Virus record (IMG/VR): IMGVR_UViG_3300035016_000034
Span: 1 to 42,626 of that record
DNA: 42,626 nt
DNA from: a virus
Reading direction: 5' to 3' (one strand)
The notes under the pieces are model-generated. The model saw nothing but the letters and a program-made list of their open reading frames with translations, did not search any database and was not told where the DNA came from. The position numbers and the translations under genes are program-made. How positions within the stretch are numbered: the first letter of the stretch is position 1; each line of letters begins with the position of its first letter. Positions 2,232 to 23,947 of the stretch are shown here, piece after piece.

Positions 2232-3101
2232 ATGACCACTAAGCCTGCCTCCATCGCGGCGGAGCCGCTCCCCCTTGCCCAGCAGCTGGTGCCGCTCGAG
2301 CTGATCGACGTACCAGCGAACCGCCTGCGCCAGCCCGATCCGGACTGGGTGCATGTGCTCGGAAAGTCCATGGCCGAGCGGGGGCAGCTGCAGCCCGTTC
2401 GCATCGCCGAGGCAGCGGGCGGGCGATATGAGCTGATCTTCGGACATGCGCGCCTGCTGGCGGCGGCCGAAATCGGCTGGGACCGGATCGACGCCGTCAT
2501 TGTTCCTGCAGATCATCCTGCAGCGCAGCATCGGCGGCTCGATGAGCTGTTCGAGAACATCGTGCGGCACGATCTCAACGCCCTGAACCGCGCGGTCGCC
2601 CTTGGCGAGGTCAAAGCGATCCATGAAACGCTGTATCCCGACGCAAAACGCGGCGGTGACCATAAGAAAAAACAACAACTTAAGTCCCAAAACGAAATCT
2701 TTTCGTTTTCGCAGTCCGCCGCGGAACGGACCGGGCTCAGCCAGCGTGCCATCCAGATCGCCGTCAGCATCGTTGAAGGCCTGGCCGCTGATAGCCTGGC
2801 GCGATTGCGCGGCACGGGCCTGGCTTCGAACCAGTCACAACTCGTCGCGCTGGCGGCGATCACGCAGGCACAGCAGGCGGCCGTGCTGGACATCCTGATA
2901 GCTGCCAAGCCCAAGGCCGCCAATGTGGCCGATGCGCTGGTGCTGGCGCAGGGTGGCAAGCTGGCGACGCCGGCAGAGAGGGCATTCCGCTCCCTCAATG
3001 ACGGTCTGACCCGCGTCGGGCCCAAGCATCGCGCCGCGATTTACGACCGCTTCGAGGGGGAGATCAAAGGCCATGCCCGGGCGCGGGGCTGGTTCAAGTG
3101 A
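2232..3101 (+). CDS. ParB-like nuclease/partition-domain protein
   Basis: A 289-residue protein with an N-terminal ParB/Srx-like domain: VPANRLRQPDPDWVHVLGKSMAERGQLQPVRI, then YELIFGHARLLAAAEIGW, then a LFENIVRHDLNALNRAVALGEV segment. The region around residues 145-185 (QSAAERTGLSQRAIQIAV) resembles the ParB HTH domain. ParB-like genes just upstream of the transposase occur in other alphaproteobacterial Mu-like phages such as RcapMu. Its role there is not established; it may help target or hold DNA rather than partition plasmids. No ParA partner is in the window. It overlaps the transposase GTG by four bases (GTGA), so the two are coupled. Confidence 0.85.
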   Translation: MTTKPASIAAEPLPLAQQLVPLELIDVPANRLRQPDPDWVHVLGKSMAERGQLQPVRIAEAAGGRYELIFGHARLLAAAEIGWDRIDAVIVPADHPAAQHRRLDELFENIVRHDLNALNRAVALGEVKAIHETLYPDAKRGGDHKKKQQLKSQNEIFSFSQSAAERTGLSQRAIQIAVSIVEGLAADSLARLRGTGLASNQSQLVALAAITQAQQAAVLDILIAAKPKAANVADALVLAQGGKLATPAERAFRSLNDGLTRVGPKHRAAIYDRFEGEIKGHARARGWFK

Positions 3102-5299
3102 AGGTATGGTTCACCCACGCCGAAGCCGCCGCACTCGGGGTCAGTGGCCTGCCGGACACGCGGCGAGGCATAGCGGCTCTGGCCGATCGCGAAGGTTGGG
3201 ACAGCTACGCCGCGTTGGCTCGACCGCGACCAGGGCGAGAGGGCGGCGGTGGTTGGGAGTACCATTTCGAGCTGTGGCCGATGTGGTCGCGGCTCGACTA
3301 TGTCGCCCGCCATATCAGCGTCGAGCCGGCAGACCAGGTGCCGCCGATCGTCGAGGATGACGCTCTGACCGCCAATGGGCGGAAAGAGCGCGATGCTCGG
3401 CTGGCGATCGTGGCGGTGGCAGAGCGTTTTGCCCAAGGCTCTGGCCTGACGGTGATGGCGGCGGATGCCTATTTCGCCGAGCTGTTCAACGCCGGAAAAA
3501 TACCCCTTGAAGACTGGGTCCGCGAGACGGTCCGCAAGGTCAGCGGGCGCAATATTGCCCGCTGGCGCAGCAAGGCCCGCGACGGCGGCTCCCGCCTGGG
3601 CTTCGATCGCGCTCTCAGCCGACAAGACACCTCGATACTCGCTACTGCCGAGGGTGGCGCAGTGCGACACTTCATCCTGGCGCTGATCGCGAAGAATCCA
3701 GCCTTCTCGGCAGACGATATCCGGACCACCACGATCGCGCGGTTCTGCTCTGATATCGCCAATCCCGAACTCGCCGACGCCAACGGCGTGCTGGCGCCGG
3801 TGCCCAAGCTGCGCGCCTTCCAGCGCACGTTGGGAATATGGAAAGAGCGGTATCGCAACGAGTTGCTGCGGATTTCCGATCCGGACGGCTATCGCTCCAA
3901 GGCCGAGTTCGTCCTGACCGCCACGACCAGGGCGGATCGGCTCAACGAAGTCTGGCAGATCGACGCCTCGCCGCTGGACGCCATCACCACCACCCGCAAC
4001 AAGCGCCCCACCATCTACTCGTGCGTCGACATCTACTCGCGGCGGATGCTGATCCTGCTGACCGACACGCCGCGCGCGCATGCCGTAGGGCTGCTTCTGC
4101 GCAAGGCCATTCTGGCCTGGGGCGTTCCCGAGCAGATCAAGACCGACAACGGTAGCGACTTCAAGGCGCACTACATCCGGCGCCTGCTGGAGCGTAGCCT
4201 CAAGATCAAGATACTGCCGACCAAGGCTTACGACGCCCGCGCCAAGGGCGTGGTGGAGCGGTCGATCGGCACATTCCAGCATCAGTTGGTCAAGCGCATC
4301 CCCGGCTTTGTGGGCCATAACCCGGCAGACCGGAAGGTGCTTGAAAACCGCAAGGCCTTCAGCGCTCGGCACAATCTCGACGACGCGCACATGTTCGGCG
4401 CCGAAATGACCGACCTGCAGGTGGCCGAGCTCTGCGACCATTGGGCGGAGGTGGACTACGCGCATCGGCCTCATAGCGGCAAGACCATGCGTGGCCGGAC
4501 GCCGTTCGAGGTGGCTGCCGGATATCAGGGTGAGGTCCGCCGTATCGAGAACGTCGCTGCGCTCGACCTGCTGCTAGCTCCAGTTGTCGGCAAGACTGGC
4601 GATGATGGTCGGCGCAAGGTCGGCCACGAGGGCATCGCGGTCAACAAGGTGCACTACCACCTCGGCACGCTGCTCGTCGGGGACGTGGTGTTTTGCCGGC
4701 AGGACCCAATCGATCTCGGGCGTATCTATGTCTTCAAAGAGGACGAAGAGACCTTCCTTGGCGTCGCCGAAAACTGGGAATTGCTCGGCCTCGACCCGGC
4801 GGAGAATGCTGCCCGCATCCGTGCGCTGCAGAAGGCCGTCAGCGACAAGACCGTGGTGCCGGTCCGCAAGATGATGCGCAGCATCGGCCCGCTCGACGTG
4901 GCCAATGCTCAGCGCGCCAAGGCTGACGCCGGCAAGGGCAACCTGGTCGCTTTCCCGCAACCCCACGCCAAATATGAGACCGCGGCCCTCAAGGCGGCAC
5001 TCGATGCTGTAACGCCCGAGGTCCCGCGGCAGGCCGACGCCCGCACGAGGGCTGAGCAACAGCGGCTCTTCGGTATTGCGGCCACGGCCAAGGCGGATGC
5101 GACCAACGTAGCAAGGCTGCCTGAGACCCCAGAGCAGCGCTATCGCCGTGCCGTCGCCATCAAGGACCGGCTCGACGCCGGTGACGCCGGCGTGCCGGCC
5201 AAGGATGCCCACTGGGTGGGACGCTACATGGAAAGTTCCGAGTTCAAGGGCCTGGCGAAGATCCGCGCGGTGCGCGGCGAGCAGGCGCAGGAGCTCTGA
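3098..5299 (+). CDS. MuA-type DDE transposase
   Basis: A 733-residue strand-transfer enzyme that cuts the phage ends and joins them to target DNA during integration and replicative transposition. The N-terminus (MKVWFTHAEAAAL, then GLPDTRRGIAALADREGW) matches the MuA N-terminal DNA-binding domain. The catalytic core has IDASP with Asp289, KTDNGSDF with Asp350 and GVVERSIGTF with Glu387, an RNase H-fold DDE triad. The C-terminal third (about 480-733) includes a Mu-transposase beta-barrel-like region and an Ala/Lys-rich tail probably contacting MuB. The start is GTG overlapping the upstream stop. Size is slightly above MuA (663 residues). Confidence 0.96.
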   Translation: MKVWFTHAEAAALGVSGLPDTRRGIAALADREGWDSYAALARPRPGREGGGGWEYHFELWPMWSRLDYVARHISVEPADQVPPIVEDDALTANGRKERDARLAIVAVAERFAQGSGLTVMAADAYFAELFNAGKIPLEDWVRETVRKVSGRNIARWRSKARDGGSRLGFDRALSRQDTSILATAEGGAVRHFILALIAKNPAFSADDIRTTTIARFCSDIANPELADANGVLAPVPKLRAFQRTLGIWKERYRNELLRISDPDGYRSKAEFVLTATTRADRLNEVWQIDASPLDAITTTRNKRPTIYSCVDIYSRRMLILLTDTPRAHAVGLLLRKAILAWGVPEQIKTDNGSDFKAHYIRRLLERSLKIKILPTKAYDARAKGVVERSIGTFQHQLVKRIPGFVGHNPADRKVLENRKAFSARHNLDDAHMFGAEMTDLQVAELCDHWAEVDYAHRPHSGKTMRGRTPFEVAAGYQGEVRRIENVAALDLLLAPVVGKTGDDGRRKVGHEGIAVNKVHYHLGTLLVGDVVFCRQDPIDLGRIYVFKEDEETFLGVAENWELLGLDPAENAARIRALQKAVSDKTVVPVRKMMRSIGPLDVANAQRAKADAGKGNLVAFPQPHAKYETAALKAALDAVTPEVPRQADARTRAEQQRLFGIAATAKADATNVARLPETPEQRYRRAVAIKDRLDAGDAGVPAKDAHWVGRYMESSEFKGLAKIRAVRGEQAQEL

Positions 5300-5378: not shown

Positions 5379-6134
5379 ATGAACAAGCATATGTCCGTCA
5401 ATCTGTACCGCGACCCGATCGCGCCGACCCGAAATGTGGCTGCGTTTTCGGTGATGCTGCAGCGGCTCAGCGACATGCCGATAACCCGTGACCGGATGGG
5501 CGCATTCTCCGGCGACCCGGGGCTCGGCAAGACCAAGAGCGCCGCCTATGCCGCCACCACCTATCGCACCCGCTATGTCACCTGCGGGCTGCTGACCACG
5601 GCACGCTCGCTGATCTCCGATATTCTGATGGACCTGGGCGAACACGAGGTGCGCGGCACCAATATCGACCTGCTGAACCGGGCGATTTTCCTGCTCGCCC
5701 ACGATCCGCAGCGGCCGCTGATCATCGACGAGGCCCACTACGTTGCTCAGCGCCGCTTCGTCGACGTGCTGCGCCAGATCCACGATGCGGCGCGCGTGCC
5801 GGTGGTGCTGATCGGCGAGAAATCCCTGATGCGACGGCTGGAGGCCTTCCCCATGGTACGCAGCCGGATCGGCCGCGTCGTGGCCGAGGCGATGCCATGT
5901 GACCTCGACGACCTGCAGCTGATGACGCGCGAGCACTTCCCGGACCTGGCCATTGCCGATGACCTGGCGGACGCCGTGCTGGCTGAAACCGGCGGCAACG
6001 CCCGGGCCATCGTCAGTCTACTCGACGATATCAACGAGCGCGCTGCCATTCTCGGCCGCGATGATCTTGATCTGAGCGGCTTCGGTGGAATCGAGACGCT
6101 CCGGGCAGCGCACGCCCAGGCGGGGGCGGTCTGA
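5379..6134 (+). CDS. MuB-type AAA+ ATPase, target-DNA activator
   Basis: A 251-residue ATPase with Walker A GDPGLGKT (45-52) and Walker B LIIDEAH (114-120), followed by an LRQIHDAARVPVVLIGE sensor region. MuB proteins bind target DNA as ATP-dependent filaments, deliver it to the transpososome and confer target immunity. The protein is shorter than MuB (312) and lacks an obvious N-terminal HTH, as in TniB-like ATPases. The ATG at 5379 has AAGGA seven bases upstream. Its stop overlaps the next start (TGATG). Confidence 0.93.
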   Translation: MNKHMSVNLYRDPIAPTRNVAAFSVMLQRLSDMPITRDRMGAFSGDPGLGKTKSAAYAATTYRTRYVTCGLLTTARSLISDILMDLGEHEVRGTNIDLLNRAIFLLAHDPQRPLIIDEAHYVAQRRFVDVLRQIHDAARVPVVLIGEKSLMRRLEAFPMVRSRIGRVVAEAMPCDLDDLQLMTREHFPDLAIADDLADAVLAETGGNARAIVSLLDDINERAAILGRDDLDLSGFGGIETLRAAHAQAGAV

Positions 6135-13836: not shown

Positions 13837-14150
13837 ACCACGGAATTCAGAACCGCGAAGCCCGCCTGGTCATCCTCCGCTTCCTGGCGGACGAGGTGAA
13901 CAGGACCCTCACGTCATCGACCCTGACCACGATGATGAACGAGATGTTCCTGTTCAACAAGGAGCGCGCCTGGGTGGAGCAGGAACTGGCCTATCTCGCC
14001 GAGATGGGCGCGGTGAAGTTGACCCCGGCCGGCACCGTGAAGGTGGCGCGGCTGCTGCCGCATGGCGCCCGCCACTTGAGCTGGGGCGTCATCATTCCCG
14101 AGGTCAAGCGGAGCTCCGAGCCGATCATGCTGCCCGAAATCGAGGGCTGA
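13833..14150 (+). CDS. Mu gp26-like small protein
   Basis: A 105-residue protein from GTG 13833 (GTGA overlap). REARLVILRFLADEVNRTLTSSTL and WVEQELAYLAEMGAVKL resemble a winged-helix fold, with the conserved order seen in Mu gp26/VpaChn25-type proteins just before the small terminase. Function unknown; possibly DNA recognition for packaging. Confidence 0.8.
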   Translation: MNHGIQNREARLVILRFLADEVNRTLTSSTLTTMMNEMFLFNKERAWVEQELAYLAEMGAVKLTPAGTVKVARLLPHGARHLSWGVIIPEVKRSSEPIMLPEIEG

Positions 14151-14152
14151 CC

Positions 14153-14725
14153 ATGGCGGCCAAGGGGCGCGGACGCCTGTCCTCGATCGACATGCTGCAG
14201 GCGGAAGCCGCCGATGACGTGCTCTGGGCCAACCAGGAGCTCTACGCGCGGCAGCGGCCGATCGCGGACATCTTCGCCGAGTTCAATGAGCGGCTGGTGG
14301 CCAAGGGCATCGAGCCGATAAAGCGTACCGCCTTCTATGACCGCAGCTTCAAAATTGCGGCGGCGCAAACCCGCATGCGCGAAGCTCGCGAAATGTTCGC
14401 AGGGCTGGCGAGCGAGTTCACGGCCGACAATGTCGACGAGAACACGGTCATCCTCGGCGAGTATCTCAAGACCTTGATCCAGGAACTGATCGACGACAGC
14501 GCCGGTGCCAAGAAGCCCAAGGACGCGATGGAGCTGGCGAGAGCCTACCAGGCCACGGTCATGGCGCAGAAGATCAGCACCGATCGCCGCCTCAAGCTGC
14601 AGGCCGAGCTGGCCCAGAAGACCGAGGAGGCCGTGCGCGAGGTGGGCAAGGCCCAGGGCTGGAGCACCGACACGGTCGACGCCGCCCTGTCAAAAATCCT
14701 CGGCGTGGAGATCAGGCGGAAATGA
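14153..14725 (+). CDS. terminase small subunit (DUF3486, Mu gp27)
   Basis: A 190-residue protein with the DUF3486 pattern: GRGRLSSIDMLQAEAADDVLWANQEL, then IADIFAEFNERLVAKGIEPIKRTAFYDRSFK. The N-terminal part probably recognises phage DNA and the rest is helical and oligomeric. In Mu-like phages this subunit starts headful packaging near the left end and hands DNA to the large subunit. Two small cysteine-rich genes separate it from the large subunit here. Confidence 0.9.
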   Translation: MAAKGRGRLSSIDMLQAEAADDVLWANQELYARQRPIADIFAEFNERLVAKGIEPIKRTAFYDRSFKIAAAQTRMREAREMFAGLASEFTADNVDENTVILGEYLKTLIQELIDDSAGAKKPKDAMELARAYQATVMAQKISTDRRLKLQAELAQKTEEAVREVGKAQGWSTDTVDAALSKILGVEIRRK

Positions 14726-14994
14726 ACGTCGTCTCCTGCCGCTGCTGTAATCCCGGCTGCACCGCCATGGTGCGGCTGACGCCATTCGCGACCGTGAGTG
14801 GCTTCGTTGACCTGACCGAGGGCTTGTGTCGGGAGTGCCTGGAGCGTGCGGCGCCGGATCGTCGGGCCCTATTCGTCGCTGCGCGGCTGGAGCTTCGGCT
14901 CTGCCCTGGCCTGGCGCAGATCGTGATGTTCGTCCGCGCCTGGGACGCGGTGAAGATGTCGGTGGGTGAGCGGTCGGTCCGGAGGGCGGCATGA
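14722..14994 (+). CDS. cysteine-rich small protein between terminase genes
   Basis: A 90-residue protein with CRCCNPGC near the N-terminus and LCRECLE near residue 40, making one plausible zinc site. It overlaps the small terminase stop and the next start by ATGA. Function unknown; its position suggests a packaging accessory. Confidence 0.75.
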   Translation: MNVVSCRCCNPGCTAMVRLTPFATVSGFVDLTEGLCRECLERAAPDRRALFVAARLELRLCPGLAQIVMFVRAWDAVKMSVGERSVRRAA

Positions 14995-15203
14995 TAGAGC
15001 CCGAAATTCGCGTGAAAATCAGCATGCCGGCCAGGGCGAAATGCACCGATCCGGAACTCACCTGCGACCGCTGTGCCGGAGTGGGGCTTGAAATCAAGCG
15101 CACCTATCGGCGCAAGAGCGGAGCCATCTCCAAGGTCGTTTATGTCATGGACCGCGACTGCGTTGCCTGCGATGGCACTGGCTTTAGGCCGGGACTGCTA
15201 TGA
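14991..15203 (+). CDS. DnaJ-type zinc-ribbon-like small protein
   Basis: A 70-residue protein with CDRCAGVG and CVACDGTGF, two CxxCxGxG-like motifs about 28 residues apart, as in DnaJ zinc centres. It overlaps the large terminase start. Function unknown. Confidence 0.75.
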   Translation: MIEPEIRVKISMPARAKCTDPELTCDRCAGVGLEIKRTYRRKSGAISKVVYVMDRDCVACDGTGFRPGLL

Positions 15204-16906
15204 GCGAGCTGTGGACCCGCGAGCAGTGGGCAGAGCTTCGTCGCAAGGCCAAGCCGGTCGCGGATACCGCCCTGGAAAGGGCTATGGCAGTCGTTGGCGA
15301 GCAAAGCCCGCTCGTTGCCTTCCTGCCGTACCAGGCGAGGACGATCTCGCTCCTCGAGGAGATCGGTACCCAGGTCCTGGTGGTAGAGAAATCCCGTCGA
15401 ATCGGCCTGACCTGGGGGCTGGCGGCCTATGCCGTGCTGCGTGCTGCGCGCGCCCGATCGGCGCGGGGCATGGACGTCCACTACATCTCCTACGCCCAGG
15501 CGATGACCCGCGACTTCATCAGCGATTGCGCCGACTGGGCGCGGGCCTTTGGCCATGCGGCCGGCGAGGTCGAGGAATACCTCTGGCCGGACGGCAAGGA
15601 CGAGTCCGGCGCCGACCGCTTCATCCAGGCGTTCCGCATCACCTTTGCCTCCGGCTTCGAGATCAATGGTCTCAGCTCGGCGCCGCGCTCGCTGCGCGGC
15701 AAGCAGGGTTGCGTCATCATCGACGAGGCGGCCTTCGTCGATGACCTGGGCGAGCTGCTCAAGGCGGCCATGGCGCTGCTGATGTGGGGCGGCCAAGTCA
15801 TCGTCTGCAGCACGCACAATGGCGCCGAGAACGAATTCAACATCCTGGTCCAGGACGTGCTCGGTGGCCGCAAACCATACGAGCACCTGCATATCGATCT
15901 CGACGAGGCGCTGATCGATGGCCTCTATGAGCGCATCTGCCTGCGCCAGGGGATCGACTGGTCGCCTGAAGCCGAGGCGCAGTGGCGCCAGGACCTGATC
16001 GCTTCCTATGCCGACGACGCCGACGAGGAGCTCTACTGCATTCCCTCGATGGGATCGGGCTCCTGGCTCACCGGGCCGCTGATTGAAGCCTGCATGACAG
16101 TGGAAGCGCCCGTCATTCGGCTGGAGCTGCCAACCAACTACCTGCAGCTCGACGAGTTCGACCAGCAGGCACTGATGGCAGATACCGAGGACAAGCTGCA
16201 GGAGGCGCTGGATGCGCTCGACCTGGAGCTGCTCTACTCGTTCGGCTTCGACTTTGCGCGCGTGGCCGATCTGTCGGTCGGCCTGCTGCTGGCCATCGAT
16301 TCGGTGCTGAAGCGGGTTTCTGCGCTCACCCTCGAAATGCGCAACGTTCCCGGTGATGAGCAGAAGCGTCTGGTGCGGATGATCCTCCTGCATCTGCGCG
16401 GCCGGCTGGTCGGCGCCGCCTTCGATGCCACCGGCATGGGTTGGACAGTGGCCGAGGACATGGGCCGCGAGTTCGGCCTGCGCAGCAACGACAACGAGGC
16501 CGGGCTGATCTGGGCCATCAAGTTCACCGAGGACTGGTACCGGGTGAACATGCCGCCGCTCAAGGTCGCATTCGAGGACCGCGCGATCGCGCTCTCCAAG
16601 GACGTGGAGCACCTATCCGACCTGCGCTCGGTCAAGGTGATCCGCGGCGTCCCGCGCGTTCCGGTGCTGCGCAAGGGCACCGAAGGCAAGAAGCGCCATG
16701 GTGACTTCGCGATCGCCGCGGCGCTGGCCTATTTCGCCAGCCGCATGCAGTGGGCGGAATACAGCTACCAGGCCGTGCAGCGGCGACCGGGTCGTTTTGA
16801 TGAGCGCGCCGGCGGCGTGCCGATCGGCCTGACCGGTTCGGTGTTCGAGGGCACGCCGCAGACGTTCCGCATGTCCTCACTCCGCAACAGACGAGGAATT
16901 CTCTGA
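15200..16906 (+). CDS. terminase large subunit (Mu gp28)
   Basis: A 568-residue packaging motor. The ATPase part has a degenerate Walker A, EKSRRIGLTW (63-72), and Walker B CVIIDEAAF with Asp175 and Glu176. ICSTHNG-like coupling motif: VIVCSTHNGAENE. The nuclease part starts with FGFDFARVADLS (Asp351), the first acidic residue of an RNase H-like fold. The arrangement SRRIGLTW and a nuclease beginning GFDFAR is typical of Mu-type terminases. It acts at the portal, cuts host-linked DNA by the headful mechanism and fills the capsid. Overlaps both neighbours. Confidence 0.95.
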   Translation: MSELWTREQWAELRRKAKPVADTALERAMAVVGEQSPLVAFLPYQARTISLLEEIGTQVLVVEKSRRIGLTWGLAAYAVLRAARARSARGMDVHYISYAQAMTRDFISDCADWARAFGHAAGEVEEYLWPDGKDESGADRFIQAFRITFASGFEINGLSSAPRSLRGKQGCVIIDEAAFVDDLGELLKAAMALLMWGGQVIVCSTHNGAENEFNILVQDVLGGRKPYEHLHIDLDEALIDGLYERICLRQGIDWSPEAEAQWRQDLIASYADDADEELYCIPSMGSGSWLTGPLIEACMTVEAPVIRLELPTNYLQLDEFDQQALMADTEDKLQEALDALDLELLYSFGFDFARVADLSVGLLLAIDSVLKRVSALTLEMRNVPGDEQKRLVRMILLHLRGRLVGAAFDATGMGWTVAEDMGREFGLRSNDNEAGLIWAIKFTEDWYRVNMPPLKVAFEDRAIALSKDVEHLSDLRSVKVIRGVPRVPVLRKGTEGKKRHGDFAIAAALAYFASRMQWAEYSYQAVQRRPGRFDERAGGVPIGLTGSVFEGTPQTFRMSSLRNRRGIL

Positions 16907-18507
16907 TGGGCCTTCTAGACATCTTTTCGCGGCCCCAGCAGGCCTTTGCCCGCGTCGAGCCGGCGGTGACCAAGCCCTCCGAAAAAGAGCAGGCCGGCCC
17001 GTTGGCGACCAGCTTCGCCCGCAACCCACGCGGTGGCCACCCGGCCGCCGGCCTCACTCCAGAGGCCCTGGCCGTGATCCTGCGTTCGTCGATCGATGGC
17101 TCGCCCAGGCGGTATCTTGAACTGGCCGAGGATATGGAGGAGCGCTTCATCCAGTACAGCTCGGTGCTGTCCTCGCGAAAGCGCGCGGTGCGGCGGCTGG
17201 AGATATCGGTGAAGGCCGCCGGCAATGACGCGGCCGACCTGGCCGAGGCCGAGCTGGTGCGTGAAGTGGTTGGCTCGGCCGCTTTCAGGTCGGTGCTGAT
17301 CCACCTGCTCGATGCGATCGGCAAGAGCTACTCGGCCGTGGAAATGATCTGGGACACGCGGCAGAAGCCCTGGAAGCCGGTCAAGTTCAAGCACCGCGAT
17401 CCCCGCTTCTTCGAGGCGCCTGAGGCCGACCCCGAGCATCTGATGCTGCTCAATGACCATGGGCGCGAAGAGCTCTGGCCGTACAACTGGATCGTCCATA
17501 GGGCAAAGGCCAAATCCGGCCTGACCATCCGTGGCGGATTGGCGCGGCCGGCGGCGTGGCTCTACCTGTTCCAGGCATTCAACATCAAGGACTGGGCAAT
17601 CTTCGCCGAGGCCTATGGCCAGCCGCTGCGCGTCGGCAAGTTCAACCCGGGGGCCAGCGACCTGGACAAGTCGGTGCTCCTCGAGGCGGTGCACAACATC
17701 GGCGCCGACTATGCCGCGATCATCCCCCAGGCCATGGCGATCGAGTTCGTCAAGGCCGAGATCACCGGGTCAACCGACCTTTATGAGCGCCGTGCCGACT
17801 GGCTCGATCGGCAGTGTTCCAAGCTGGTGCTGGGGCAGACCGGCACCACGGACAGCCAGTCGGGCAGCGGTTATGCCCAGGCGAAGGTGCATGACGATGT
17901 TCGTGAAGACATTGTCGACGCCGATGCCGAGGAGCTCGCCGCCACGCTGAACGAGCAGCTCGTGCCGGCGCTGATCAATTTTAACTTCGCCCGGGTCCGC
18001 AAGGACTATCCCGAGATCGTCATCGGCCGTCCGGAGGAGGAGGACGTTGACACCATGGTCAAGGTCGCCAAGGCATTCGGGCTCAGTGTGAAGAAGGACG
18101 AGGCCTACGGGCTCTCCGGCTTCTCGATCCCCGAGGCGACCGACGAGGTCATCGACCTTTCGGCGCAGCGGGCCGCGCCCGCCCCCGAGGATGGCCAGGA
18201 AGAAGGCAATCCGCCGCCCAAACCGGGCAAGCCCACCAAGGCCGCGCTTCAGGCGGGGCAGGATGCCATCGCCGCGGCCGTGGAGGATCAGCTGGCGGCC
18301 GAGGGTTGGCAGCCCCTGGTGGCGCCGGTGGTAAAGGGGCTGGCCGAGGAGATCGCGGAGGCCACCAGCCCCGATGAGGTGAAGCGCATCCTGCAGCGCC
18401 GGGCATCCACCCTTAGCGTGGGCGAGCTGACCGATGCCCTGGCGCGTCTCAGCTTCGGTGCCCGCCTCGCCGGTGAAGTTGACGAGGATCTGCGCGATGG
18501 CCGCTGA
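16906..18507 (+). CDS. portal protein (DUF935, Mu gp29)
   Basis: A 533-residue portal protein. DMEERFIQYSSVLSSRKRAV, DAIGKSYSAVEMIWD, RHRDPRFF-like KHRDPRFFEAP, and IVHRAKAKSGLTIRGGLARPAAW, then WAIFAEAYGQPLRVGKF are DUF935 hallmarks. It forms the dodecameric channel for DNA entry and the connector for the tail. The C-terminal third is Ala/Pro-rich. Start overlaps the terminase stop (TGATG) and the end overlaps gpF by 11 bp. Confidence 0.95.
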   Translation: MGLLDIFSRPQQAFARVEPAVTKPSEKEQAGPLATSFARNPRGGHPAAGLTPEALAVILRSSIDGSPRRYLELAEDMEERFIQYSSVLSSRKRAVRRLEISVKAAGNDAADLAEAELVREVVGSAAFRSVLIHLLDAIGKSYSAVEMIWDTRQKPWKPVKFKHRDPRFFEAPEADPEHLMLLNDHGREELWPYNWIVHRAKAKSGLTIRGGLARPAAWLYLFQAFNIKDWAIFAEAYGQPLRVGKFNPGASDLDKSVLLEAVHNIGADYAAIIPQAMAIEFVKAEITGSTDLYERRADWLDRQCSKLVLGQTGTTDSQSGSGYAQAKVHDDVREDIVDADAEELAATLNEQLVPALINFNFARVRKDYPEIVIGRPEEEDVDTMVKVAKAFGLSVKKDEAYGLSGFSIPEATDEVIDLSAQRAAPAPEDGQEEGNPPPKPGKPTKAALQAGQDAIAAAVEDQLAAEGWQPLVAPVVKGLAEEIAEATSPDEVKRILQRRASTLSVGELTDALARLSFGARLAGEVDEDLRDGR

Positions 18508-19285
18508 GATCAACGGCGTCTCGCCCAGGGCCGCCATCGATGCGCTGATCACGCGGGGCAAGGCGCTGCATCCGACCTTTGCCTGGCAGGAGGTCTATGC
18601 CGACATCCACGGCACCATGTTCACCGTGGCCAAGTCGGCCGGCTTCGATGTGCTTGAAGACATCTTCAATGCCCTTTTAGCCGCCCTCGAGGAGGGCAAG
18701 ACCTATCGCCAGTTCGCGGCCGAGCTCACGCCGCTGCTGCAGGCCAAGGGCTGGTGGGGCCGCCAGATCGCCACCAACCCGGTCACAGGCCTGCCCGAGG
18801 TTGCCCAGCTCGGCTCGCCGCGCCGGCTGCGGCTGATCTTCGATGCCAATATGCGGGTGAGCTATGCGGCGGGCCACTGGGCGAGCTTTGAGCGCAACAA
18901 GGCGGCTCGGCCGTTCCTCCGCTATGTCCACCTGGTCGGCCAGGAGAACCCGCGCCTGCACCACCAGGCCTGGCACAATGTCTGCCTGCCGGTCGACCAT
19001 CCCTGGTGGAACACCCATGCCTGCCCCAATGGCTGGAACTGCCACTGCACCATCCAGAGCCTGTCGCAGCGCGACGTGGATCGCTGGGATGGCCCGCTGC
19101 CGCTGCGCCTTGTGCCGCCGGCGGAGGATCTGCGGGAATGGACCAACAGCGTCACGGGAGAGGTGCGCTGGATCGACCGTGGCATTGACCCGGGCTGGGA
19201 TCACAACCCCGGCAAGGCCGGCTGGGGGCCGACGCTGCAGCGCCTGGCCGAGCGGCCTGACCCTCTCAACATTCGCGGCACATAA
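18497..19285 (+). CDS. gpF-like minor head protein (Mu gp30)
   Basis: A 262-residue protein with the phage Mu F domain: RRLRLIFDANMRVSYAAGHWASF, then VHLVGQENPRLHHQAWHN, then HPWWNTHACPNGWNCHCTI with a conserved Cys/His cluster. It is needed for early capsid assembly near the portal. ATG 18497 was chosen because it overlaps the portal end. In Mu the order is F-G-I; here a cassette of about 3.5 kb separates F from the protease, and the G-like gene is placed later (27923). Confidence 0.92.
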   Translation: MAAEINGVSPRAAIDALITRGKALHPTFAWQEVYADIHGTMFTVAKSAGFDVLEDIFNALLAALEEGKTYRQFAAELTPLLQAKGWWGRQIATNPVTGLPEVAQLGSPRRLRLIFDANMRVSYAAGHWASFERNKAARPFLRYVHLVGQENPRLHHQAWHNVCLPVDHPWWNTHACPNGWNCHCTIQSLSQRDVDRWDGPLPLRLVPPAEDLREWTNSVTGEVRWIDRGIDPGWDHNPGKAGWGPTLQRLAERPDPLNIRGT

Positions 19286-19294
19286 GGAGCTCGC

Positions 19295-19558
19295 ATGGCA
19301 CTCAATCTCTTCACCACCGGCGATACGATCGACGAGGAGTCGGGCGAGTTCACCGTCGTTGCCGGCACGCCGGCCGGGCTCTGCCTCAAGGGTGCGAGCA
19401 ACGATGCCCGGGTGGTCGTGCTCAAGAAGGACGATGCTGACGCCTTCCAGCCCACCAGCATGCAGCTCACCAACGCCAGCCCCGATGGCATGCTCGTCTC
19501 GCCAGGCACCTATAAGCTGCGGCGCGAGGGCGGCACCTGCGGGGTGTTCCGTGATTAG
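19295..19558 (+). CDS. small hypothetical protein
   Basis: An 87-residue beta-rich protein (FTVVAGTPAGLCLKGASNDARVVVLKK, then SPGTYKLRREGG). AAGGAG precedes the ATG by about six bases. It could be a small virion-surface or cement protein, but no family is recognised. First gene after gpF. Confidence 0.65.
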   Translation: MALNLFTTGDTIDEESGEFTVVAGTPAGLCLKGASNDARVVVLKKDDADAFQPTSMQLTNASPDGMLVSPGTYKLRREGGTCGVFRD

Positions 19559-19700
19559 GTCCGGCCTGCTGCCCAGCCTGGTGCCAGCCATGCCGGCGCG
19601 GGAGGTGTCGAGTCTCGTGGCGAGTGGGGGGGTGCTTGCCCTCATTTTCAGGGGGCAACCACTGACCATCAACAACCAAACCCTCAATCTAGGAGCCTAA
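19551..19700 (+). CDS. possible small protein
   Basis: A 49-residue frame from GTG 19551 (8-bp overlap with the previous gene) to TAA. It bridges exactly to the next gene and shows ordinary composition (MPAREVSSLVASGGVLALIF). No obvious ribosome site beyond coupling; tentative. Confidence 0.4.
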   Translation: MIRSGLLPSLVPAMPAREVSSLVASGGVLALIFRGQPLTINNQTLNLGA

Positions 19701-19701
19701 G

Positions 19702-21225
19702 ATGGGGATCAACATTGAAGCTCCTGGTTCTTATGCTGGAAGCCTTGCTTCCGTTCTGCGCTCACTAACGCTCGGCGAAGGTCTTCTTCGCCCTGTGATA
19801 TCGGCTGGAAAGTTGGTTGTTGGCTTCGGAACCGGCATCTGGCTAAACCCATCGGCCGCACCGATTGCCGAGGGCCACACGGGGTATGATGCCAGTGGGG
19901 ACGTCACCGGCGTCGTGTCCCGGACAGGACAGCCGGAAATGCTGGTATGGGAACCAGCCAGCGACGCGGTTCTCGAAATCAACTTGGGCAATGTGGCCAC
20001 GGCGGCTTCCAAGCTGCGCACTGCTGCCCTTGGTGGAAATTTTGGGCTTTGGGTGCATGTCGCATCACAGCCTGGATACGAGCCGTCAGGGAGCCTGAAG
20101 GGCAGCATCGCCATCACGTTGACGACCGACACCGGGACCGGCTCGAACGCTAACGCCCTAACAGTCAGCTACAACATCAATCAAGTTCGCGAAGGCTGGA
20201 ACTTCCTGAAGTTTGTCCAGCGAAATCCAGCAGCCTACGTCGCCGGGTCAGGCGAGACAGAGTATCACCCTTTCGGGGTGGCTGCTGGGAGCTTCGGAAC
20301 AGGGGGGGCGTCAGATATTCTGAATTCACCCATCACAGGTCTGAAAATTGGAGTTTCCAATTTCGGCGGCGCAACTTTGACCTTCGACAGCTTCGTCACT
20401 GGGATATCGTCGGGCGCACAGATCGTTCTTGGCTGTGACGCAGGCGGCGCTGACTTGGTCGATGACGCTCTGCCGCTGTTCCAGTCCTATGGCTGGACCG
20501 GGTACACAGCCGTTCCCGCTCGAATATGGGATGGGACGGAGAGCAGGATCATGCCGGACCTCACGGTCCCGAGCCTCTCGCGTATCCAAGAGACCTATGC
20601 TGCTGGTTGGGAGAACATCAACCATACGACAAACCATCTTCCTGGCGCCATAACGTCACCAAAGATGGCCGAGCTAACTTCGGCAGGTGAGATCGCATAC
20701 GAGCTTGAGCATGTTAAGGGTTTGTATGCAGCAAAAGGGCTGGCGCGGGGCGTGGAGTTCTACGCCTCTCCGCAGTCCTCCAGTTCCCGACTGACAGAGA
20801 AAGTGATTGCTGGGCTAGACTTCATTGCTCAGCGTCATGCTCGCAAGCCCAACGTCAGTGTGACCCCGTGGGGCGTTGACAACCTCCACCACCTTGGAAG
20901 TTCGGACATTGGAAGCGCAGCCGCAGCCGGTGTGTCTAGCGTGACTTCTGGCGTCGCAAGTTCGGTAGTCGGGTGGCAGGTGTTCTCCAAGATCAAACGT
21001 ATGGTTGATGTGATCGAGGCATACGGGGACACTTGGTTCCCGTTTTGGCACGGCATCACGCATCTTGGTGACAGCGGATCGGGTGAAGACCTGACCGGGG
21101 ACAACCTGCTGATGACATACAGCGCCTTTCAAATGACGCTCGACTACATCGCTGAACGCGAGGCAGCAGGCGGTTTGCGGGTCCGCGACGGCTTCACCGG
21201 CTGGTATTACGGAGTTGGTCGATGA
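19702..21225 (+). CDS. polysaccharide-deacetylase-like (CE4 fold) protein
   Basis: A 507-residue protein. Residues 1-230 are beta-rich and Gly-rich, like a fibre or carbohydrate-binding domain. From about 240 a NodB/CE4 pattern appears: GCDAGGADLVDDALPLFQSYG aligns with the TFDDG motif (Asp246; the following metal Asp is Ala247), and NHTTNH gives His308 and His312 of the H(S/T)xxH metal motif. CE4 enzymes remove acetyl groups from surface glycans, so this may modify or bind host polysaccharide as a virion decoration. The missing second Asp makes activity uncertain. GC and codon use are visibly lower than in the flanking head genes, suggesting acquisition. Confidence 0.7.
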   Translation: MGINIEAPGSYAGSLASVLRSLTLGEGLLRPVISAGKLVVGFGTGIWLNPSAAPIAEGHTGYDASGDVTGVVSRTGQPEMLVWEPASDAVLEINLGNVATAASKLRTAALGGNFGLWVHVASQPGYEPSGSLKGSIAITLTTDTGTGSNANALTVSYNINQVREGWNFLKFVQRNPAAYVAGSGETEYHPFGVAAGSFGTGGASDILNSPITGLKIGVSNFGGATLTFDSFVTGISSGAQIVLGCDAGGADLVDDALPLFQSYGWTGYTAVPARIWDGTESRIMPDLTVPSLSRIQETYAAGWENINHTTNHLPGAITSPKMAELTSAGEIAYELEHVKGLYAAKGLARGVEFYASPQSSSSRLTEKVIAGLDFIAQRHARKPNVSVTPWGVDNLHHLGSSDIGSAAAAGVSSVTSGVASSVVGWQVFSKIKRMVDVIEAYGDTWFPFWHGITHLGDSGSGEDLTGDNLLMTYSAFQMTLDYIAEREAAGGLRVRDGFTGWYYGVGR

Positions 21226-21419
21226 CCCTGAGTGAGATGGATTGGAACGACAGTTGCTGCGCTGACAGTCCCAAGTGGGCAGAAGTGGAGGTGCCGAGCG
21301 GTTGGCTGCGGATCAAAAAGCGGTCGGCTGGCTATGCGGTGACGAAATTCGGCGCTGACAAGAAGTTGGTTGCTGCTGAAACAGAGATCAGTGAAGCCGA
21401 CTTGCAGGCACTCTTATAA
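21222..21419 (+). CDS. small protein coupled to the deacetylase-like gene
   Basis: A 65-residue protein (MTLSEMDWNDSCCADSPKWAEVEVP, then a KKRSAGYAVTKFGADKKLV segment), overlapping the previous stop by ATGA. Base composition resembles the deacetylase-like gene, so the pair probably arrived together. Could be a chaperone or partner; unknown. Confidence 0.65.
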   Translation: MTLSEMDWNDSCCADSPKWAEVEVPSGWLRIKKRSAGYAVTKFGADKKLVAAETEISEADLQALL

Positions 21420-21479
21420 CCCCCTCCCCCTCCCCCACGCCCTCACATCGATTGTGGGGGTGCTGCCTGACAAAAAGAA

Positions 21480-21512
21480 CCCCAGCCGAGAGGACGATTC
21501 GGCTGGGGTTTT
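21480..21512. terminator. bidirectional intrinsic terminator
   Basis: CCCCAGCCGA (21480-21489) pairs with TCGGCTGGGG (21499-21508) around a nine-base loop. TTTT follows on the plus strand, and on the other side AAAAAG (21472-21477) gives a T-run on the minus strand. It separates the rightward cassette from the leftward recombinase and should end both transcripts. Confidence 0.88.
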
Positions 21513-21587
21513 CGACTTTGGAGTATCGGTCGGCAACCCGATGCAGCATCAATTCCAATGCTGGCCTTCGGTTCCGCTACGGGCTGA

Positions 21588-22439
21588 TCACATATAGTCG
21601 TAGCGCCGCTTGTTGATGCTCTCGGCCACCTCGCGGCCGGCGTCGTGCGGCTGGACATAGGTTTCAAGGAACACGCTCGACGACTTCCATCGGCCAGCGG
21701 CCATAGCGGTCTTGATGTCGTGGCGCTTGAGGGCATTGGTGGCGAAGCTGTAGCGGCCGACCGAGTGGGGCGGCCGATAGGGAATGCCCGCGCGCTCGCA
21801 GACCGCCCGCATCCGCTCCGCGACGGAATAGCGGGAGGTGTAGCTGAAGACGTGGTCGTCATCGCCATAGGTCAGGTTGTGCAGCCGGAACATCAGCTCA
21901 TCCGTCAGGTAGGCATTCTGCATCACGTCGGTCTTGGTCTTGACCAGGAGCGCGATCCGGCGCCGCAGGTCGACGTGGCGCCCTCTGAGGTTCACCGCCT
22001 CGCTGACCCGCGCCGCCGTGTGGTTCATGAACACGACGATGCCGCTGAGGTGGAAGAGCCGGTCGCCGTCGCTCTGGTTGAGGAAGGCCGTCAGCCAGGA
22101 GCCGTCGACGGGAGAGTGCTTGGTCGATCGGGGGTGACGGAACATCCTGATCCGCATCGGCCCGCACCAGCCGAGCTCGTGCGCATGGTAGAGCACTGCC
22201 CTGGCCGGGCTGATGGCATGGCGGTTGCGCGTGGACGGCATGTGGTCCGGATAAAGGTCGAGCGCCATCTGCCGGATCTCGGCCGGAACGATGGTGTCGA
22301 CGGTCCGATCGGCGAAGTAGGCGGTAATCCTGGGCAGGTAGTGGCCCTGGCCGCCCTGGCGGACATAGCTCTGGGCCGCAGCCTCGAACGTGCGCGCATT
22401 GCGCGGAATCGCAAATAGTGGTGTGACAGCGTCAGCCAT
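21588..22439 (-). CDS. tyrosine recombinase (phage integrase family)
   Basis: A 283-residue protein. The SAM-like N-terminal core-binding region is followed by a catalytic domain with TAARVSEAVNL (Arg144), KTKT (Lys167/169), PHSVGRYSFAT (His225, Arg229), AAGRW (Trp251) and FLETYV with nucleophile Tyr261. All key residues are present, so it should be active. ATG 22439 has GAGGGAG seven bases upstream, better than the in-frame ATG at 22454. It is antisense to the late operon and unexpected in a transposing phage; no second end or attachment core is recognisable. It may serve cassette mobility, invert or resolve DNA, or be a relic of recombination with another phage. Confidence 0.88.
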   Translation of the reverse strand: MADAVTPLFAIPRNARTFEAAAQSYVRQGGQGHYLPRITAYFADRTVDTIVPAEIRQMALDLYPDHMPSTRNRHAISPARAVLYHAHELGWCGPMRIRMFRHPRSTKHSPVDGSWLTAFLNQSDGDRLFHLSGIVVFMNHTAARVSEAVNLRGRHVDLRRRIALLVKTKTDVMQNAYLTDELMFRLHNLTYGDDDHVFSYTSRYSVAERMRAVCERAGIPYRPPHSVGRYSFATNALKRHDIKTAMAAGRWKSSSVFLETYVQPHDAGREVAESINKRRYDYM

Positions 22440-22743
22440 CCTGAACTCCCTCATAGTTCGGTTGGTTAGAGCGCACCGTGACCTGGCCGGGTCCGGTGCG
22501 TTCGCATTTGTAGGCTAGTTGAAGGGTCGTCGCGGCGTGAAGCTAGGAACACGCTTAACAGCGCCGCCCAGCAGCGGGGCCGCAGGCTCGACTGGCACTG
22601 TGGGGGCTGGAAACGGCCCAGGCCGCTCCCTGAGCGTCCCAGCCGCTTCAAATTCGCTTCAAAAGGTGGTTGGAGAGCGCCGGGGGAACTGAGTGCGGTG
22701 GGGACCATTTGTGGCCCGGTGGCCGGTCCACCCCGTCGTGATC
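22440..22743. other. non-coding leader between recombinase and second late promoter
   Basis: No convincing gene. It holds an inverted repeat CGCACCG (22472-22478)/CGGTGCG (22494-22500) upstream of the recombinase start, which may be an operator or part of a recombination site. Frames on either strand here look like shadows. Confidence 0.5.
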
Positions 22744-22765
22744 GCCGGTGACAGTGTCACCTGCA
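22744..22765 (+). promoter_or_regulatory. late-promoter activator site, copy 2 (PI position)
   Basis: All 22 bp are identical to 11573-11594, containing the palindrome GGTGACA-G-TGTCACC (22747-22761), 33 bp before the protease ATG. This is where Mu has late promoter PI, upstream of gene I. It would restart head-gene transcription past the terminator and antisense recombinase. Confidence 0.75.
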
Positions 22766-22798
22766 ACAGCCCGTGGCGAATGAGCCACCTTCGCTGTC

Positions 22799-23947
22799 AT
22801 GAACGACCGCGTCAACATCTTCAATCTTCCGATCGCTGCAGCCGCCGAAAAAGGCGCTGCAGATGGCGGCTGGATCAAGCTCATTCCCGAGGGCACCTTC
22901 CGCCTGCGGGATGGGCGCGGCCCCTTCACGGTCACCGGCCAGGCTGCGCTGCAGCAGATCGTCGACCGCACCCGGGCCCATCTCGGCGCGACCGAGCTGA
23001 TGATCGACTTCGATCACCAGGGCGCTGAACTCTTCCTCGGCCAGACGGTCGGCGCCCGCGCCGAGGCTGCCGGCTGGATCGTCGAGCTGCAGGCGCGTCC
23101 GGATGGCCTCTACGGCCGCCCGGAGTGGACCGACGAAGCTGCGGCCAAGATTGCCGCCCGCCAGTACCGCTACATCTCCCCGTTCTTCCTGCCGACCAAG
23201 TCGGGCGGGATCGACAAGCTACTGAACGTCGCCCTGGTCAACATGCCGGCGCTCGACCTGTCCGCCGTGGCGGCAGCCTTCTCCAAAATCTCCGAACCCA
23301 AGGATGACTCCATGAATGCCATCGCCAAGGCCCTGGGCCTTGCTGAGACCGCCAGCGCTGAAGCGATCCTGGCCGCGCTCAATGAACGCAACGGCAAGAT
23401 CGCCGTCGCCGCCGGCCTCAAGGCCGACGCTGCCTTCGACGCCGTCCTTGCAGCCGTGACCGGAGTTGCCGGCGCTGTCGGGAAGATCGCTGTCGCAGCG
23501 GGCCTCAAGGCCGATACGGCTCCCGACGCGGTGATCACCGCCGTCACGGCCGCCACCAAGAGCGATGCCGTTCCGGCCGCCATGTACACCCAGCTTTCGG
23601 GCGAGGTGGAGACGCTCAAGGCAACGATCATCGAGCGCGACGTCGGCGACGCGGTCAAGGCTGCCATCGAGGCCGGCAAGGTCTCGCCCGCCCAGGAAGA
23701 ATGGGCCAAGGGCTATGCCCGCAATGATCTGCCCGGCTTCAAGGCCTTCGTCCAGGGCGCCGCCGTCCTGACCAAGGTGCAGCTCGGCGACCAGGCCGAG
23801 GTCGTGGACAGCCAGGAGCTGGCCCCTGCTGCCGTCGCCGCCCGCGCTGTCGCCTACCAGGGCCAGCAGGAGAAGGCTGGCATCTACGTCTCGACCATCG
23901 ACGCGGTCGCCCACGTCAAGGCCGAGATGGCCAAGGCCAAGAAGTAA
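22799..23947 (+). CDS. prohead protease/scaffold (Mu gpI-like)
   Basis: A 382-residue protein. The N-terminal protease region has WIKLIPEGTFRLRDGRGPFTV, LMIDFDHQGAEL (candidate catalytic His) and RQYRYISPFF with NMPALD, as in Mu gpI. The C-terminal half is helical and Ala-rich and works as scaffold. It processes itself and capsid proteins inside the prohead. A nested start (23312) can give the scaffold alone, and a 29-residue tandem repeat lies in the scaffold part. First gene after the second late activator site. Confidence 0.92.
   Translation: MNDRVNIFNLPIAAAAEKGAADGGWIKLIPEGTFRLRDGRGPFTVTGQAALQQIVDRTRAHLGATELMIDFDHQGAELFLGQTVGARAEAAGWIVELQARPDGLYGRPEWTDEAAAKIAARQYRYISPFFLPTKSGGIDKLLNVALVNMPALDLSAVAAAFSKISEPKDDSMNAIAKALGLAETASAEAILAALNERNGKIAVAAGLKADAAFDAVLAAVTGVAGAVGKIAVAAGLKADTAPDAVITAVTAATKSDAVPAAMYTQLSGEVETLKATIIERDVGDAVKAAIEAGKVSPAQEEWAKGYARNDLPGFKAFVQGAAVLTKVQLGDQAEVVDSQELAPAAVAARAVAYQGQQEKAGIYVSTIDAVAHVKAEMAKAKK
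23312..23947 (+). CDS. nested scaffold protein (Mu gpZ-like)
   Basis: An internal ATG in the protease frame (Met172) preceded by AAGGA seven bases upstream, the best ribosome site within the gene. It would give a 211-residue protein equal to the scaffold half, exactly as in Mu, where Z is read from inside I. The start falls directly after the protease domain. Confidence 0.7.
   Translation: MNAIAKALGLAETASAEAILAALNERNGKIAVAAGLKADAAFDAVLAAVTGVAGAVGKIAVAAGLKADTAPDAVITAVTAATKSDAVPAAMYTQLSGEVETLKATIIERDVGDAVKAAIEAGKVSPAQEEWAKGYARNDLPGFKAFVQGAAVLTKVQLGDQAEVVDSQELAPAAVAARAVAYQGQQEKAGIYVSTIDAVAHVKAEMAKAKK
23393..23566 (+). repeat. tandem 87-bp (29-residue) repeat in the scaffold
   Basis: Two units, 23393-23479 and 23480-23566, both begin GKIAVAAGLKAD and share a DAV-AVT tail. 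The DNA has drifted at third positions, so this is an older duplication kept in frame. Confidence 0.8.

Follow-up and report, generated by a model that had tools for sequence, protein, structure and literature searches.

A probable passenger tyrosine recombinase of a Mu-like phage shares its leader with homing-type endonuclease genes

Tyrosine recombinases built from a core-binding and a catalytic domain alone, such as Brujita Int, XerA/XerH and Cre, are classed as simple tyrosine recombinases, and phages can be integrated by such simple enzymes (PMC8138268). The shufflon recombinase Rci, for its part, is a phage-type integrase minus the arm domain (PMC8138268). Homing endonuclease genes of T4-like phages, including I-TevI, SegB and MobE, have been described, as individual cases, with hairpins that sequester the ribosome-binding site (PMC2988022). 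The gene presented here, a short tyrosine recombinase of a Mu-like phage, has points of comparison with each of these systems.

The recombinase and its genomic setting

The window, meaning the whole stretch of 42,626 nucleotides that was analysed, is the 42.6-kb virus record IMGVR_UViG_3300035016_000034. It has a Mu-like layout, with repressor, ParB-like, MuA and MuB genes followed by those for terminase, portal, gpF, protease and capsid. The initial annotation had pointed out that the phage already possesses MuA and MuB, and this is confirmed: a MuA-like DDE transposase lies at 3098–5299 (+ strand; phrog_310, E 1.6e-89) and a MuB-like ATPase at 5379–6134 (+ strand; phrog_296, E 1.1e-39). The phage also encodes Mu gpF and Mu protease I. 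The gpF-like minor head protein (18434–19285, + strand; PF04233, phrog_220) and the I-like head protease (22799–23947, + strand; PF10123, phrog_328) form the left and right borders of a cargo hotspot at 19286–22798. The same locus is a hotspot in related Mu-like phages, whose gpF-protease intervals measure between about 0.2 kb (L144) and 5.8 kb and differ in cargo; relatives are mostly alphaproteobacterial.

In the window, the hotspot holds open reading frames of 87, 49, 507 and 65 aa on the + strand and the recombinase gene, int, on the − strand. The 507-aa frame has no match in Pfam, PHROGs or PDB. A terminator-like inverted repeat (21478–21510; 12-bp perfect arms, 9-nt loop, A/T tracts on both sides) separates int from the convergent cargo gene. 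This region had been called a cassette, a term that suits the 19.7–21.6 kb segment, where GC falls to 57–60%, but not int, which has the phage's own 65% GC. Among the related Mu-like phages compared, none carries int at the gpF-protease hotspot, and a contig 96% identical to the window (L162) stops short of it. The arrangement is known from one viral record, and a metagenomic misassembly at the hotspot may be considered; a second Mu-like fragment, L042, speaks against this: its short int sits next to an SGNH-hydrolase-like gene in the interval from portal to gpF.

Other contents of the gpF-protease region were recorded in passing. A Mu-like prophage (L163) carries Cas13a there (15343–19020; PADLOC E 3e-251) together with a seven-repeat CRISPR array (19036–19480), and L171 has a PD-Lambda-5_A-like protein adjoining a Dam-like methylase (14347–16549). 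Another Mu-like phage, L160, encodes a Ku protein (PF02735) and an HMCES/YedK-like protein (14076–14909 and 15409–16116), while L143 has a ParA-like gene and two further frames (14568–16495) in an interval that is nearly empty in its relative L144. Separately, a small open reading frame with an enzyme-like protein of about 430–510 aa recurs near short recombinases at five loci: the window (19295–21225), L042 (459–2505), L028 (7616–10505), L005 (4860–6580) and L074 (about 1.1–2.9 kb upstream of int).

The longest reading frame of int spans 21588–22454 (− strand, 288 aa), in which 22439 is the second ATG. Because conservation of the leader described below points to 22439, we take this as the true start, giving a protein of 283 aa (21588–22439, − strand), in exact agreement with the residue numbering of the initial annotation. 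Pfam finds Phage_integrase (PF00589; 37 bits, cut-off 27) as the only domain, and no HNH or GIY-YIG nuclease domain. The catalytic residues that had been claimed, R144, H225, R229, W251 and Y261, are all present, and a lysine not listed before, K169, completes the active site. All six are invariant across 42 homologs, including the unusual H-x3-R spacing. The R-K-H-R-(H/W)-Y active site in an integrase catalytic domain thus places the protein in the tyrosine recombinase superfamily, and its homologs, far from being always alone and inactive, are widespread and catalytically conserved. The window recombinase is most likely active, although no target site for it came to light.

An AlphaFold2 model (pLDDT 91.7) places helices at residues 18–88 and the catalytic domain at 113–283, with nothing more N-terminal. 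Its best fold match in the PDB is XerA; other good matches are Tn1549 Int, lambda Int, XerH, IntI, Cre and Brujita Int (5vfz), and SroF structures are also among the matches; integron IntI appears solely in this comparison of folds. As modelled, the enzyme consists only of core-binding and catalytic domains and would therefore count as a simple, arm-less tyrosine recombinase.

A short clade beside long-form integrases

Homologs were gathered from phage records, IMG/VR and bacterial genomes, and a tree was built by a quick search in which long-branch placements are uncertain. It splits a long form (about 345 aa), which has an N-terminal arm-binding region, from a short form (about 270–300 aa) that is set apart by a branch of support 100. 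The arm-binding domain of the long clade is absent from the window enzyme. By motif scan, int is followed at a short distance by a tRNA 3' end in 16 of 27 long-form rows, one of them that of Rhizobium phage phiU with its annotated integration core, and in 0 of 37 short-form rows, although a later alignment revealed tRNA-like 3' ends that the scan had missed in two short-form members of clade C, L061 and L063. The one in L061 may instead serve an adjacent 389-aa integrase. We propose that the short clade arose from, or beside, tRNA-targeting phage integrases.

Among contigs of at least 30 kb, a second tyrosine integrase is encoded by 13 of 24 from the short clade and by 1 of 14 from the long clade (p=0.005). 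Since over half of the carrier phages have another integrase, the short recombinases are best regarded as accessory; many members have no such companion, and some may therefore integrate their phage. The nearest relatives of the window enzyme, L027 and L028 (64–66% identity), lie directly after a 409-aa integrase gene and point in the same direction. The T4-like Caulobacter phage Cr30 also carries a short recombinase.

A structured leader shared with endonuclease genes

The start of int is preceded by a conserved promoter-plus-leader element (22434–22516, − strand) that extends from a −10 box to AUGGCU. It matches covariance model R1 with 74 bits (E 1.4e-14), a score to be read with the window leader being itself a training sequence; the model was built in part from the recombinase leaders of the window, L052, L081, L094 and L111. 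In gene sense, the element comprises a −10 box TAYAAA, CGAA, hairpin 1, CUCUAACCA, hairpin 2 at the Shine-Dalgarno region and AUGGCU. The putative −10 box of the window is TACAAA (22507–22512, − strand), its TAYAAA pattern being conserved in leader alignment A3.

Hairpin 1 (22472–22500, − strand; CGCACCG-GACC / GGTC-A-CGGTGCG) shows compensatory changes. Its outer stem is the inverted repeat 22472–22478/22494–22500 that had been noticed before as a possible site of the enzyme. The repeat is real, far from chance and longer than first described, with 11 pairs and one unpaired base on one side. As an attP or crossover site it was rejected: the arms covary and the repeat precedes endonuclease genes too, as a hairpin of their common leader. 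The conserved linker CUCUAACCA (22463–22471, − strand) leads to hairpin 2 (22443–22459, − strand; GAACU-AUGAGGG-AGUUC), which holds the Shine-Dalgarno region in its loop and 3' arm and whose stem varies with compensation (GAAC/GTTC, ACCT/AGGT, ACAC/GTGT, GATC/GATC). In several leaders, the predicted fold pairs CCA of CUCUAACCA with UGG of AUGGCU; such pairing would hide the start codon and would explain the near-universal Met-Ala start.

The 71-nt window leader folds at −30.7 kcal/mol (z −3.5). The covariation score was reached by 0 of 500 shuffles, in the first alignment and in the model-fitted one, and the signal is lost when partners are slid by 1–3 columns. As stem sequence had played a part in selecting these sets, a second scan relied on CUCUAACCA, GGAG and ATGGC alone; 24 among the 81 matches listed have a stem of at least 6 bp ending exactly at CUCUAACCA, whereas swapping arms between sequences gives a mean of 4 and a maximum of 10. 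Among the matches listed, most genes behind this stem-blind set encode HNH_3, HNH, HNH_5, AP2/NUMOD3, endonuclease VII-like or GIY-YIG proteins.

The element was first seen when the sequence 5' of the window int proved conserved in L052 and, unexpectedly, ahead of an HNH gene in L076. When IMG/VR was scanned for the pattern, 49 stretches matched, about five of them by chance and several as duplicates. Most of the remainder stand 20–25 nt ahead of an HNH endonuclease gene, and five, the window's included, precede a recombinase of the window enzyme's family. Among loci fetched by protein homology alone, the covariance model places the leader directly 5' of int in seven (window, L052, L019, L023, L058, L072 and L075), so that with L081, L094 and L111 ten short recombinases carry it. 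In dozens of viral contigs it fronts free-standing HNH or GIY-YIG endonuclease genes, and in Sulfitobacter phage phiGT1 and Rhizobium phage RHph_N3_2 the model likewise detects it ahead of HNH genes. By sharing the leader of these genes, the window int resembles a homing-type free-standing gene. BLASTN of the leaders against named phages gave no match, the leaders being too short and variable for this program. In 289 bacterial genomes, under strict filters and within one class, the leader was found at the seed genome alone, which fits a phage-borne element.

Leader presence requires five changes on the recombinase tree. Between the window and L052, the leader is identical at 66 of 73 positions and the first 24 coding bases at 21, while the remainder of the gene is 63% identical; the body of the window int is closer to that of L027 (69%), which has no leader. 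Gene exchange behind the leader may account for this pattern, which a stronger constraint on leader and start fits equally well. Rfam has no match to the window leader at E<=10 and none above cut-off in 11 other leader loci; two weak antisense overlaps were the only hits. Judged against the open-licence literature, we see about an even chance that the leader is a previously undescribed structured RNA that serves DNA-processing genes of phages as a portable module for expression, gating translation by concealing the Shine-Dalgarno region and start codon, and behind which different mobile genes swap.

Some further observations concern leaders and their genes. In phiGT1 (L290, 1122–1318), the leader implies a start of the HNH gene phiGT1_12 117 nt upstream of the annotated one. 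A family of about 95 aa with cysteines (NSKDxCxSCIYFxxxxNDFxGxCRR) stands behind the leader in L178, L207, L245 and L259. L188 has a sub-threshold match to int-alpA RNA (5937–6003; 32.7 bits, cut-off 35.8). A different hairpin lies just 5' of the start in the clade-B recombinases of L041, L074, L042, L050, L059 and L070, for example CCTCGTTTCACCAACGAGG before AAAAATGCACAC.

Interpretation and comparison with known systems

The explanation that we favour, with reasonable though not high confidence, is that this intact two-domain recombinase is passenger cargo with its own promoter and a gated leader, in a phage that leaves integration to MuA/MuB. The arm-less gene would be carried in the gpF-protease hotspot and transcribed alone from a sigma70-type promoter, and its mRNA leader would fold into the two hairpins, the second holding the Shine-Dalgarno region. 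With this region held in hairpin 2 and the start codon predicted to be paired as well, gating of translation is probable; the presence of the same leader before HNH and GIY-YIG genes in many phages suggests, in turn, that expression of int resembles that of a homing-type selfish gene. The enzyme would probably recombine at short Xer-, Cre- or Brujita-like sites, in both directions and with no need of arm sites. As MuA and MuB are also present, it is probably not the integration enzyme of this phage.

The main rival, which is possible yet clearly less probable, holds that a chunk of a lambda-like phage, namely a tail-end enzyme gene with a convergent int, moved in and that int is temporary and functionless there. 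The implied order of surface-enzyme gene, terminator and opposing int is found in Cr30, where int adjoins a 506-aa gene; the SGNH-hydrolase gene next to int in L042 and the many B-clade phages with int between tail-enzyme and lysis genes point the same way. Set against this are the intact catalytic residues and leader, the latter so similar in L052, the differing GC of int and the enzyme gene, and the same kind of gene in L042, another Mu-like phage. Recombinases may also work as a pair, as XerC and XerD do, and a short enzyme normally coupled to a large integrase could have been orphaned here. Large and short genes are indeed adjacent and co-directional in the closest relatives, and they would also be neighbours across the record ends of L061 and the Nostoc phage, should these records be circularly permuted, but most short recombinases do not adjoin a second integrase and the window has none, so we give this reading little weight. 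Least credible of all is reuse of the fold as a DNA-binding regulator. SroF, a repressor of the SPbeta group, has a recombinase fold and appears among the fold matches, but in the window family every one of the six catalytic residues is invariant.

Phage integration by the window int is unlikely. An alternative arm-less, Brujita-like integration route finds some encouragement in the fold resemblance to 5vfz and in the 11 of 24 short-clade contigs with no second tyrosine integrase; it remains improbable, given MuA/MuB, the absence of a tRNA 3'-end attP within 800 bp on either side of int (T-loop motif scan), the lack of any block conserved across clade B downstream of int and the frequent mid-genome position of int. 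A phiU-type version of the alternative integration suggested initially lacks support on two counts, since both the arm-binding domain and the tRNA 3'-end attP are absent; ARAGORN finds no tRNA gene in the window. A likeness to a tRNA D-arm at 22456–22475 was rejected as an attB/attP core, because this segment belongs to the leader (CUCUAACC) and is not followed by a T-arm. The inversion or exchange of the cassette that had also been raised at the outset is not supported, nor is its excision, as no flanking direct or inverted repeats beyond chance were found; direct repeats bounding a cassette were likewise at chance level. That int shuffles or inverts the neighbouring surface-enzyme gene in the manner of Rci is accordingly very unlikely, even though int repeatedly stands beside variable surface enzymes and the 507-aa gene contains a 14-bp perfect inverted repeat (20615–20628/20998–21011). 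That repeat, tried as a shufflon, is equalled in 10 of 200 shuffles and its flipping introduces stop codons; there are no other candidate repeats, and inverted sites flanking a switchable segment were not found near int.

Read as independently expressed mobile cargo, the gene offers an explanation for spare tyrosine recombinases in a DDE-transposing phage, a T4-like phage and phages with a normal integrase, and the common leader provides a handle for finding and testing such cargo genes. Should the leader gate translation, selfish genes of phages would have in it a common means of control, for which gating structures have so far been mainly individual cases of the T4 group (PMC2988022).

Compared with described enzymes, the window recombinase is 54% identical to the integrase of Rhizobium phage phiU (AB004561, a record itself 5'-truncated), with shared catalytic motifs including H-x3-R; long-clade members, however, combine an arm-binding region at the N-terminus with a tRNA 3'-end attP about 100–145 bp downstream, and the window has neither. 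The 'integrase' of Cr30 (49% identity) is a short form as well, lone and beside a convergent gene, but Cr30 lacks a window-type leader and is T4-like, whereas the window phage is Mu-like. Brujita Int, XerA/XerH and Cre share the two-domain composition and the fold, at an identity of just 12–19%. Because the short clade is akin to arm-domain integrases, its members have probably lost the arm domain secondarily, a loss shared with Rci, which likewise comes from an integrase lineage; unlike Rci, the window gene has no inverted-repeat array nearby. A parallel in expression comes from I-TevI, SegB and MobE, autonomous genes with RNA structure at the ribosome-binding site and, for some, a promoter of their own, as would be the case here. 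Those structures have been described one at a time, whereas the leader described here forms one conserved family that spans many phages and also precedes a recombinase.
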